This document shows, in pieces, positions 9,057 to 16,512 of a stretch of 26,120 bases of DNA. The notes beneath the pieces were generated by a model. That model was not told the origin of the DNA. It searched no databases and saw nothing but the letters and a program-made list of their open reading frames with translations. How positions within the stretch are numbered: position 1 is the stretch's first letter; each line of letters starts with the position of its first letter. The DNA comes from Clostridia bacterium. GTDB lineage: Bacteria; UBA6262; WVXT01; JAUXBS01. The position numbers were made by a program, and so were the translations under genes. Location: NCBI GenBank assembly GCA_030618495.1, contig JAUXDE010000008.1, positions 1 to 26,120 of the forward strand, in the 5' to 3' direction.

Positions 9057-9980
9057 TTAACTATCCGCCTTATCTATGACGAAAGAACTCCCGCCTTTTG
9101 CTTTGGCGTATTTCTTAAGCTCAGCTCCCATCTGGTTTACGTAACCCATATGCTCTATTTTCTTGTCCTTATTGGTGACCACAGCTATGGCAATTGATAT
9201 CAGGGGAAATTCATTTTCATTTCCCTGCCGGTCTTTCGCTTTCACGAAACCTTTCTTTCTGTCAGTTTTATTGTAAAACTCCAATACATTCCTGTCAAAT
9301 TCCTCAATGATTTTATTGCACAGTTTGTCTATATTATCGTGTTCGGTTATTACAATGAAATCATCGCCGCCTATGTGCCCCACGAAAACCCCTTCATTAC
9401 GGAAGTGTTTTATGGCGTTCATTATCGTATAAGCCGTCATTTTAATAATGTTATCGCCCTGTATAAAACCATAGCCGTCGTTATAAACTTTAAAATTATT
9501 AATATCAAGATACATAACGGCAAAAGCATCCGATGACTTTATTTTTTCCTCCAATTTTTTAATGACAACCCAGTTGCCCGGCAATCTCGTCAAAGGATTG
9601 GCGTTAATGTCCCTGGAACTCCTGCTGAAAATCCATTTTATCCTGTCAATAAAAGTTCCGGGCTCAAAGGGTTTGATAATATAGTCATCACAACCACAGC
9701 TTAAAGCTATTTCCCTGTCGCTTATTCCCTCCTTGCCTGTAAGAATAATAACCGGAATATAACTAAACAGTATGTCTTCCTTGACGGTTTTACATACCTG
9801 AAGCCCGTCCATACCGGGCATACTTATATCAATCAATATCATAGAAGGCGCATTATGATAAATCTTTTCAAGCGCATCCTTGCCGTTGAGAGCGGTTTCA
9901 ACCTCAAAAGATTCCTGTTCGAGGATATCCTTTGTAGTATCCAGGAACTCCTTATTATCATCAACTAACAGGATTTTCAT
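9057..9980 (-). CDS. Response regulator with GGDEF-type output domain
   Basis: 307 residues: an N-terminal receiver domain and a C-terminal GGDEF domain. The receiver has the acidic pair D7/D8, phospho-acceptor D51 (in LIDISMPGMDG), T81 and K103. The output domain begins near NPLTRLPGN (128-136), keeps the metal aspartate in MYLDINNFK (D159) and has GGDDF at 204-208 in place of GGDEF/GGEEF; no RxxD inhibitory site is present at the usual distance. It may make cyclic di-GMP on phosphorylation, but the Glu-to-Asp change leaves activity uncertain. It begins with AAGGA just outside the inverted repeat at 9997-10071 and ends flush against leuS. No partner histidine kinase is in the window. Confidence 0.9.
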   Translation of the reverse strand: MKILLVDDNKEFLDTTKDILEQESFEVETALNGKDALEKIYHNAPSMILIDISMPGMDGLQVCKTVKEDILFSYIPVIILTGKEGISDREIALSCGCDDYIIKPFEPGTFIDRIKWIFSRSSRDINANPLTRLPGNWVVIKKLEEKIKSSDAFAVMYLDINNFKVYNDGYGFIQGDNIIKMTAYTIMNAIKHFRNEGVFVGHIGGDDFIVITEHDNIDKLCNKIIEEFDRNVLEFYNKTDRKKGFVKAKDRQGNENEFPLISIAIAVVTNKDKKIEHMGYVNQMGAELKKYAKAKGGSSFVIDKADS

Positions 9981-9996
9981 AATTGAATCCTTAAGG

Positions 9997-10071
9997 GAAT
10001 TATGGGGACACGTACCTAATTATTCTTAAAATAGTCCGAGAAAAATAATTAGGTACGTGTCCCCATAATTC
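9997..10071. repeat. Intergenic inverted-repeat element (28-bp perfect arms)
   Basis: Arms 9997-10024 and 10044-10071 are exact reverse complements around a 19-base centre. Each arm carries the core GGGGACACGTACC. The element fills the gap between dxs and the REC-GGDEF gene; the last five residues and the TAA of dxs are read from the right arm. The shape, the intergenic placement and the GGGGAC core resemble REP-like elements mobilised by Y1 (RAYT) transposases in other bacteria; no transposase is in this window. It could also form a stable hairpin in the dxs mRNA. Confidence 0.8.
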
Positions 10072-11905
10072 TATTGACTGTATTTATTATCCCCTCCACA
10101 TTAAGGCCGTACTTGTCTCTCAATTCACTGCAACTGCCGTATTCTATAAATTTATCAGGCAGCCCTATCGATTTAATAAACACCTCATCTGAAGCCAGCA
10201 ACTCACTGATACTGCTTCCAAAACCACCTGAAAGCACCCCTTCTTCCACCGTCACTATCTTATTGGTATAACCAACCACCTTTTTGATCATTTCTTTATC
10301 CAGCGGTTTAATAAATCTCATATTTACCACCGTTGCCTTTATTCCAAAAGTTTCAAGCTGCCTTGCCGCAAGAAGAGAAGGATGCACCATGCTGCCAATG
10401 GCAAGTATTGCCACGTCTTCCCCATCGGCAAGCATCTCTGCTTTTCCTATAGGAAGCTTAGTAATGGTTTTATCCAATTTTACTCCCACAACCTTCCCCC
10501 GGGGATATCTCAGGGTACACGGACAGCCCGCATAAATTGCTGTTTTTAACATGTTCTGGAGTTCGTTTTCATCCTTTGGCGCCATAACAACCATATTCGG
10601 TATCATTCTTAGAAAGACAATGTCAAATACCCCGTGATGCGTCGGACCGTCCTCACCAACGACTCCCGCCCTGTCAAGGGCAAAAACAACCGGAAGGTTC
10701 TGCAGACAGACATCATGAATAACCTGGTCAAGCGCTCTTTGCATGAATGTTGAATAAATTGCGCATACCGGCAGGTAGCCGCCCTTTGCCAAACCCGCGG
10801 CAAAAGTCACCGCATGCTGTTCCGCAATCCCCACGTCAAAAAACCTTTTCGGGTACTGGCTGCCGAAGGCCTCGAGTCCTGTTCCCTGCGGCATTGCCGC
10901 GGTAATTCCGACGATTTTTTCATTATCCTTCGCAAGAGTCATAATTGATTTTGAAAATATCCCGGTAAACGAAGGAATGGTATCCTTCCCTTCCTGTTCT
11001 CCCGTCAGGATATTAAAGTTGTTTATCCCGTGGAACATAATGGGATTTTTCTCCGCAGGCTCATACCCCTTTCCTTTTTTAGTAATGACATGAACGAGTA
11101 CGGGCCCCTTAAGCTGCTTTACATTATCTAAGACCTCGATCAACCTGTAAACATCATGTCCGTCAATCGGTCCGACATAGGAAAACCCCAGCTCTTCAAA
11201 AAACATTCCGGGAAACAGGAGAACCTTGAGCCTCTTTGCTGTTCTCAATAAACCGATACCAAAGAATGTAAGCCTCTTCAGAAACTTTTCTATCCTCGTT
11301 TCTAATTTTTTCACTACCCCTAATGTCATAAGCTTAGCCAGCAGGCTTGACAACGCGCCTATTCTGTGTGATATGAACATCTCGTTATCGTTAAGTATTA
11401 CTGTAAGGTCTTTTGATATATGCCCGGCATTGTTCAATCCCTCAAAAGCCAGCCCCGCCGTCATTGACCCGTCACCAACGACCGCCACGACCCTGTTATT
11501 ATTGCCTGACAGGTCCCTTGCGCATACGTATCCCAGCGCCGCGGATATTGCCGTGGAACTGTGGCCGCTCACGAAAGCATCGTACTTGCTCTCTTCGGGA
11601 TTAGGGAAACCGCTTATGCCATTGAGTTGTCTCAGGGAATCAAATCTTTTTCCCCTGCCGGTTAATATCTTATGCGTGTAGCTCTGGTGCCCCACATCCC
11701 AGACAATTTTGTCCTCGGGGCATTCCAATACATAATGCAGGGCTATGGTTAACTCAACAGTTCCCAGGCTGGCAGCAAGATGACCTCCGGTTTTTGAGGT
11801 TGTCCTGATCATCAGGTCCCTGATTTCTTTTGCAAGCTCCGGCAGGAGTTCTTTTTTTATCAATTTAAGATCAGACGGCCTGTCTATTTTCTCAAGTATC
11901 GACAT
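10049..11905 (-). CDS. dxs: 1-deoxy-D-xylulose-5-phosphate synthase
   Basis: First enzyme of the MEP isoprenoid pathway, joining pyruvate and glyceraldehyde 3-phosphate with thiamine diphosphate; cytosolic. Seen: the cofactor motif from GDGSMTAG (144-151) to NDN (172-174), the SGHSSTAIS segment at 113-121, GIAEQH at 359-364 with catalytic Glu362, and DRAGVVGEDGPTHHG at 411-425. The length of 618 is normal. ATG 11905 is preceded by GAGGA. It follows ispA by 17 bases. The C-terminal residues MGTRT and the stop codon are encoded by one arm of the inverted-repeat element, so the original 3' end of the gene was probably rewritten by that insertion. Confidence 0.97.
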   Translation of the reverse strand: MSILEKIDRPSDLKLIKKELLPELAKEIRDLMIRTTSKTGGHLAASLGTVELTIALHYVLECPEDKIVWDVGHQSYTHKILTGRGKRFDSLRQLNGISGFPNPEESKYDAFVSGHSSTAISAALGYVCARDLSGNNNRVVAVVGDGSMTAGLAFEGLNNAGHISKDLTVILNDNEMFISHRIGALSSLLAKLMTLGVVKKLETRIEKFLKRLTFFGIGLLRTAKRLKVLLFPGMFFEELGFSYVGPIDGHDVYRLIEVLDNVKQLKGPVLVHVITKKGKGYEPAEKNPIMFHGINNFNILTGEQEGKDTIPSFTGIFSKSIMTLAKDNEKIVGITAAMPQGTGLEAFGSQYPKRFFDVGIAEQHAVTFAAGLAKGGYLPVCAIYSTFMQRALDQVIHDVCLQNLPVVFALDRAGVVGEDGPTHHGVFDIVFLRMIPNMVVMAPKDENELQNMLKTAIYAGCPCTLRYPRGKVVGVKLDKTITKLPIGKAEMLADGEDVAILAIGSMVHPSLLAARQLETFGIKATVVNMRFIKPLDKEMIKKVVGYTNKIVTVEEGVLSGGFGSSISELLASDEVFIKSIGLPDKFIEYGSCSELRDKYGLNVEGIINTVNRIMGTRT

Positions 11906-15123: not shown

Positions 15124-16512
15124 TTATTGACTAAGGTTATCAATTAACCCTCTCACCTCTTCAAGCGACGGGGGTTTACTTATATCCATAATGTAAATTC
15201 CACGGCTGGTCCCTTTTCTAAAACTCATGTAAACCACCCTGTTATCCACCGGGGAGAACAGGACAAAATTACTTCCGTAATATTTATCGCTTAACAACTG
15301 CACCCTGTTTTTCCCGTTACTGTCCGCCATGTAAACACCCTTGGGGCTGAAAAACCCTTTTGACTCCCCCCTGGCTTTACTGCTTCCTCCGCTTAAAAAT
15401 GCCACTTTACTGCCATCATGCGAAAAAGTAGGTATTTTATTATAAAACTTATCACTTGACACGCACTTCTCACCCTTGCCCGTTACGTTGCAGATAAATA
15501 TATTGTTGTTATCCAGCGAATTTATCTTCCCATCCCGGTTGGTATCCCTGCGCGTGGACAGAAACATTATACTCAAACCATCGGGCGAATACATGGGAAA
15601 ACTGTTATTGTACTTGTGGGATACAATCTGATGTTCATTCTTCCCGTCAATATCCACCGTATATATACTGCTATTGTCCCGAAAATCAATCCTGCCGTCT
15701 CCATTTGTATCATGCCGCCAGCTGGTGTATAGTATCCTGCCACCTGTCGGTGAAAAAGAAGGAAATGTGTTATCATAAGCATCTGTTACAATCTGGTTTT
15801 CCCTGCTTCCGTCACTATTAATAATATAGATACCGCTGTTGCTGCTGCCCCGCCAGCTTGAAAAGACAATCTGCCTGCCATCCGGAGAAAATGACGGGTA
15901 CTTATTGAAGAATACATCCTGTACCACGCATTTCTCGTCAGTGCCGTCAATATTTATGGTATAAACCCCGGGGTAGTCAAGGTTGTTGATAATGCCGTCA
16001 TCGTTGGTGTCCCGCCTCCTGCTTAAGAAAACTATTTTCTTGCCGTCCGGAGAAAATCCCGGGTTATAATTATCATACTCGTCTCCCGTCACCTGTGCCT
16101 CTTCTGCGGTATCTACATCCACCATGTAAATAGCGGAATTATTACCTACCATGCTTCCCTCCGCTTTTCTCCTGCTACTGGCAAAAACTATCTTCTTACC
16201 GTCTCGTGAAAAACTGGGGAATGAATTCCTGTGCTTGTCGCTGACCAGCTTTCTCATACCCGTTAAATCACACATAATTTTTTTCATGTTCTCGTCCGGA
16301 TTTAACCCAACCAGTAAGTGAAGGTACTTTTTGGCTGATTCCATGTCCGTCTTCAGGAAACTCGCAGCTGCTGAATAGTAATACGCTTCGGGTAGATTTT
16401 CCTTTTTTTCAATAGACCTTGCCAGCTGCTTGATGGCTTCATCAAGCAACTGCATATTCAGATACCTTTTACCTTCATTCAATAATTTTTCTTTACCACC
16501 GAATAATTTCAT
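15124..16512 (-). CDS. TPR / seven-motif beta-propeller (TolB-like, PD40) protein with EF-hand-like loops
   Basis: 462 residues. An N-terminal helical stretch (about 10-75) looks like one or two TPR-type repeats. It is followed by seven PD40/WD40-like motifs of the form FPSFSPDGxxIVFxS (about 97, 149, 204, 249, 304, 359 and 414), predicting a seven-bladed propeller. Three blades carry an inserted loop matching the EF-hand/dockerin calcium pattern: DTNDDGIINNLD (168-179), DTNGDGRIDFRD (268-279), DTNRDGKINSLD (323-334). The chosen ATG follows GGGGGT; a TTG eight codons earlier overlaps the yraN stop. No signal peptide or membrane span is seen, which is unusual for a TolB-like propeller. Exact function unknown; protein binding or calcium-stabilised scaffolding is plausible. 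Confidence 0.82.
   Translation of the reverse strand: MKLFGGKEKLLNEGKRYLNMQLLDEAIKQLARSIEKKENLPEAYYYSAAASFLKTDMESAKKYLHLLVGLNPDENMKKIMCDLTGMRKLVSDKHRNSFPSFSRDGKKIVFASSRRKAEGSMVGNNSAIYMVDVDTAEEAQVTGDEYDNYNPGFSPDGKKIVFLSRRRDTNDDGIINNLDYPGVYTINIDGTDEKCVVQDVFFNKYPSFSPDGRQIVFSSWRGSSNSGIYIINSDGSRENQIVTDAYDNTFPSFSPTGGRILYTSWRHDTNGDGRIDFRDNSSIYTVDIDGKNEHQIVSHKYNNSFPMYSPDGLSIMFLSTRRDTNRDGKINSLDNNNIFICNVTGKGEKCVSSDKFYNKIPTFSHDGSKVAFLSGGSSKARGESKGFFSPKGVYMADSNGKNRVQLLSDKYYGSNFVLFSPVDNRVVYMSFRKGTSRGIYIMDISKPPSLEEVRGLIDNLSQ

Follow-up and report, generated by a model that had tools for sequence, protein, structure and literature searches.

A palindromic repeat, very probably a miniature mobile element of the TIRYT kind, supplies the end of dxs in a Clostridia bacterium

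In this study, we report that the perfect inverted repeat at the 3′ end of dxs, in a window of 26,120 nucleotides (the whole stretch of DNA analysed), is very probably a miniature mobile element, palindromic and non-autonomous, that belongs to the type termed TIRYT (terminal-inverted-repeat-associated Y1 transposase), as judged from sequence comparisons. The case is a clear one for this little-studied class in an uncultured lineage, with one transposase, one repeat family and empty sites in a same-genus genome, and with a sister family in the same order in which both the transposase and the repeat arms have changed. Several genes, including dxs, have had their stop codon rewritten by the mobile repeat, and the view of Dxs itself is unchanged by the finding.

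The inverted repeat at the end of dxs

Recomputation of the inverted repeat at positions 9997-10071 (75 bases) gave arms of 28 nt each with 19 nt between them, exactly as the first-pass annotation had placed it between dxs and the REC-GGDEF gene. The pairing reaches 31 nt at 97% beyond one mismatch further in, and no other strong, close inverted repeat was found in the window. The features of the locus are the following:

9057..9980, minus strand: REC-GGDEF response regulator of 307 aa, the gene that follows dxs on its strand
9988..9992, minus strand: AAGGA, Shine-Dalgarno-like site of that next gene, read from the sequence
9997..10024, plus strand: left arm, 28 nt, GAATTATGGGGACACGTACCTAATTATT (sequence, inverted-repeat search)
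10004-10011: GGGGACAC motif within the left arm (sequence)
10025..10043, no strand: spacer (loop) of the element, 19 nt (sequence, inverted-repeat search, fold)
10044..10071, minus strand: right arm, perfectly reverse-complementary to the left arm, giving the dxs MGTRT codons and TAA
10049..11905, minus strand: dxs, 1-deoxy-D-xylulose-5-phosphate synthase, 618 aa (ORF, Pfam)
10049-10051: stop codon of dxs, inside the right arm together with the final five codons

The Dxs C-terminus reads ...NRIMGTRT*, and the open reading frame agrees with the earlier proposal that its GTRT codons and TAA come from the right arm. The Pfam domain Transketolase_C stops at residue 606 of 618, ahead of the element. 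When folded as RNA of the dxs strand, positions 9997-10071 reached -46.6 kcal/mol (z = -11.0), and 0/200 shuffles were equally stable, which bears out the very stable mRNA hairpin that had been claimed. Its outer foot (9997) is indeed close to the next ATG (9980), at 16 nt rather than the 17 bases first counted, and the AAGGA of the REC-GGDEF gene lies 4 nt downstream of the foot, outside the stem. Elsewhere in the window, a gene for a WD40/TolB-like beta-propeller protein contains a pair of direct repeats of 69 nt (15838-16071) that are 71% alike; these are ordinary internal repeats.

A dispersed family and its transposase

The 20-nt core of the arm (GGGGACACGTACCTAATTAT) gave 49 matches with up to three mismatches in the 1.69-Mb genome to which the window belongs (G000), against a single match for the reversed control pattern. 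These matches fall at about 24 sites, most of which have two arms facing each other across a spacer of 12-44 nt, so that the dispersed copies for which the first-pass annotation had suggested a search are present. Unlinked sites share spacers: those of C44 and C106 are identical, those of C151a and C151b are identical but oppositely oriented, and those of C28/C29/C128b and of C82/C88/C152 are alike at 0.89-0.96 and 0.68-0.84 of the maximum score, respectively. Arms and spacer were therefore copied as a whole unit. That the spacer of the window copy arose from the transposase element by internal deletion was considered and is not claimed, given that the likeness at both ends was seen by eye only and is too short. 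A bias of the sites against divergent gene pairs (0/19) is not claimed, because divergent intergenic DNA makes up 14% of the background and chance gives 0/19 about 6% of the time.

Additionally, tandem partial repeat heads (AATTATGGGG, AATTTGGGGACA and the like) border 8/24 of the elements in G000 (C15, C19, C28, C29, C44, C151b, C166 and C121; L003, L005, L006, L008, L010, L027, L030 and L145), whereas 321 kb of background contain a single partial head. Insertion at the same place more than once, or abortive excision, may have left them behind. At L017 (G000:C106, ~1465-1600) the element is nested in a GGGGTCAG-type palindrome (GGGGTCAGGTCT...AGACCTGACCCC), so that two GGGGWSAS families are nested at this site.

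The search for a Y1_Tnp gene, likewise proposed in the first pass, revealed exactly one in the genome (E 7.5e-15; PF01797 at E 2e-14). On each side it has a copy of the arm with its GGGGACAC, the two copies forming a perfect inverted repeat of 28 nt:

G000:C61:1172-1828 (L149), minus strand: Y1_Tnp transposase, 218 aa (profile search)

The protein carries HVH and the Tyr of HKKYTRMIN (HUH plus a single Tyr) and matches PDB 4er8, TnpArep. Two points speak against the TIRYT reading: its match to NCBIfam REP_Tyr_transpos reaches 65.5 bits, below the cut-off of 80, and the C-terminal HTH of TnpAREP subclass 2.1 was not detected, no HTH family of Pfam being found up to E 10 in the ~90 residues beyond the Y1 domain. 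Two genomes of the same order encode transposases 67-68% identical to this one, with a different arm, GGGGACACAATACTTAATTAT, at both ends and 36-39 dispersed GGGGACACAATACTTAATTAT copies in each genome, and two further genomes of the GGGGACACAATACTTAATTAT genus have 6 copies each, without a close transposase. More distant relatives of the transposase, in a sample of 290 genomes, are often flanked by inverted repeats, often with GGGGAC-type cores. The cognate arms in G000, together with the changed arms and their copies in the same-order genomes, indicate that transposase gene and repeat go together. In this regard, the earlier association of GGGGAC-core repeats with Y1 (RAYT) transposases is refined in that the repeat is of the TIRYT type rather than a strict REP (no GTAG, single arm not self-complementary).

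Empty sites in relatives

Among the 60 genomes compared, the arm was found solely in its own. No copy was found in the same-genus genome G001 (dxs 81% identical); its completeness is 76%, and the part that is missing may contain copies. Twelve of the element sites, the dxs junction included, are intact in G001 yet element-free, with the flanking genes adjacent and 22-82 nt between the aligned parts. There, dxs is followed by the same REC-GGDEF gene ~20 nt past its stop, without the repeat, and Dxs ends in another tail, ...EFAGVSNPVVS. Past the KYGL...I motif, Dxs tails vary in sequence and length among relatives. A single copy at the same position in all relatives with a conserved Dxs tail, the outcome named in the first-pass annotation as contrary to insertion, was not seen. 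It must be noted that the evidence for mobility is presence or absence between species only.

The sister repeat family provides the best pair of empty and filled sites, with G002:C9 filled, G003 (C51) empty and flanks 96-98% identical. The mirrored outer flank GAATT(A)T at both ends of the element first suggested an AATT target-site duplication. However, the empty site of G003:C51 is without AATT, so the GAATTCC at G002:C9 came with the element; at other sites (C50, C128b and G004:C31) AATT is present in the empty relative.

Some of these junctions hold other repeats. In place of the window's element, G001 has other GGGG-headed repeats, namely a different GGGGACAGACACC palindrome at the C82 site (L245, G001:C70) and GGGTCAGGCCTTAACA arrays at the C152 site (L244, G001:C260); both junctions appear to be used repeatedly by different repeat families. 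L278 (G005:C7), which corresponds to the site of the G002:C9 element, has another palindromic repeat, GCACGATTTGAAATCGTGC ... ACAATTTGAAATTGTGC.

Gene ends made by the element

Six of the 24 elements close the adjoining reading frame in the same arm frame, with the tail GTRT* or GTCT*. The genes ending in this way are dxs, C106, C151a, C152, C128a and C157, of which the C106 ORF (167 aa) may be spurious. In the two cases other than dxs that have an orthologue in G001 (C128a and C152), the G001 tail differs, as compared by eye. The background, which covers 40 contigs plus the window (347 kb, 291 called genes), contains a GTRT/GTCT-type ending in dxs only.

According to the first-pass annotation, an essential gene appeared to have lost its native end to an inserted element. 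The insertion stands, given the empty G001 site and its other tail, while the gravity attached to it does not, as Dxs tails vary freely. Because of this variation, and with Transketolase_C untouched, the changed tail is probably harmless. An element supplying the stop codon of an essential gene is a tidy case, but one of a known kind.

Proposed mechanism and alternative explanations

The element consists of two facing GGGGACAC-headed terminal repeats around a short spacer. HUH/Y1 enzymes of the IS200/RAYT group act through single-stranded, hairpin-folded DNA, and the resident transposase would move the short elements by way of such DNA. One of them would have landed at the last codons of dxs; as the arm carries TAA in one frame (GGG ACA CGT ACC TAA), the dxs frame would have been closed with GTRT after a variable, dispensable tail. 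The stem of the inserted element would not include a ribosome-binding site for the gene that follows, and the consequence of the insertion for Dxs is most likely near-neutral. On an RNA spanning dxs and the REC-GGDEF gene, the perfect stem of 28 bp would form after departure of the terminating ribosome, and it would then probably undergo trimming or cleavage, or else protect the dxs 3′ end; we regard such an RNA step, be it folding, trimming, cutting or 3′ protection, as an evenly balanced proposition. A perfect stem of 28 bp is a plausible substrate of RNase III, and RNase III is encoded in the genome.

One alternative concerns function only and is compatible with a mobile origin, namely that the hairpin has been domesticated as a post-transcriptional switch setting the ratio of Dxs to the REC-GGDEF regulator. 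Translation of dxs would open the hairpin, whose stem contains the stop codon, and pauses would let it close beside AAGGA. We consider this unlikely. The stop within the stem makes an effect on the expression of dxs or the regulator conceivable, and the short distance from AAGGA to the foot, the RNase III gene and, by analogy, the E. coli REPs agree with it: there, the gene upstream is translated less when a REP lies closer than 16 nt to its stop codon (Liang et al. 2015, as summarised in PMC12306157). However, the Shine-Dalgarno-like site lies outside the stem, and there is no sign of selection at the site, with 23 other unrelated junctions occupied and no element in G001, an absence which argues against a conserved role. 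A broader proposal, which we hold to be quite improbable, is that the arm functions as a portable end for genes. With a stop in one frame of each strand in every copy, elements landing at gene ends would be rescued as clean four-residue GTRT/GTCT tails, the stem-embedded stop would tie opening of the hairpin to upstream translation, and the family would re-tune gene pairs genome-wide.

A canonical GTAG-class REP or REPIN moved by a RAYT would share the layout of facing pairs, the one cognate Y1 transposase and the intergenic sites, and is nevertheless very improbable. The GTAG (GTRG) tag was sought at the foot of the arm and is absent from the arm sequence, the single arm does not fold on itself (-0.9 kcal/mol, z -0.2, like shuffles), and the sub-threshold REP_Tyr_transpos score of the transposase also stands against it. 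That the repeat terminates or attenuates transcription of the dxs unit and has been retained for this function is scarcely credible: the very stable hairpin does sit exactly at the end of dxs, but the stem is not followed by a T-tract and is therefore not an intrinsic terminator, no terminator-like site was found in 9850-10250, and the same sequence occurs at two dozen unrelated junctions while being absent from this one in G001.

Comparison with known systems

The main TIRYT/TIRtron type is defined by the motif GGGGWSAS in the surroundings of RAYT-like genes (Di Nocera et al. 2013, PMC3733652), and the arm motif GGGGACAC fits this consensus. The type belongs to TnpAREP subclass 2.1 of Quentin et al. 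(2018, PMC6006769), who equate the subclass with Bertels RAYT group 1. On sequence features, the element is filed as a member of the TIRYT class. As in that subclass, the Y1 protein has a long C-terminal extension and the flanking repeats are of the form GGGG[AT][CG]A[CG], with no typical REP near (PMC6006769); the difference lies in the HTH, which Pfam did not detect here. Like the element, REPINs are doublets of short repeats that face each other, form a single hairpin and need a single-copy transposase (Bertels and Rainey 2011, PMC3116915), whereas their REPs are each self-complementary with a conserved tag, unlike the arms described here (PMC3116915). The supply of stop codons to adjoining genes by mobile repeats is likewise known for GTAG REPs, in which the stop is TAG (PMC3733652), while here it is a TAA in the middle of the arm and leaves a GTRT/GTCT tail. 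In TIRtrons/TIRYTs, as here, a RAYT-like Y1 transposase is flanked by long GGGGWSAS inverted repeats without GTAG REPs, and the dispersed families are moderately abundant and often dimers (PMC3733652). With respect to these, the present case adds a new host lineage, the arm GAATTATGGGGACACGTACCTAATTATT and empty sites identified by same-genus comparison.
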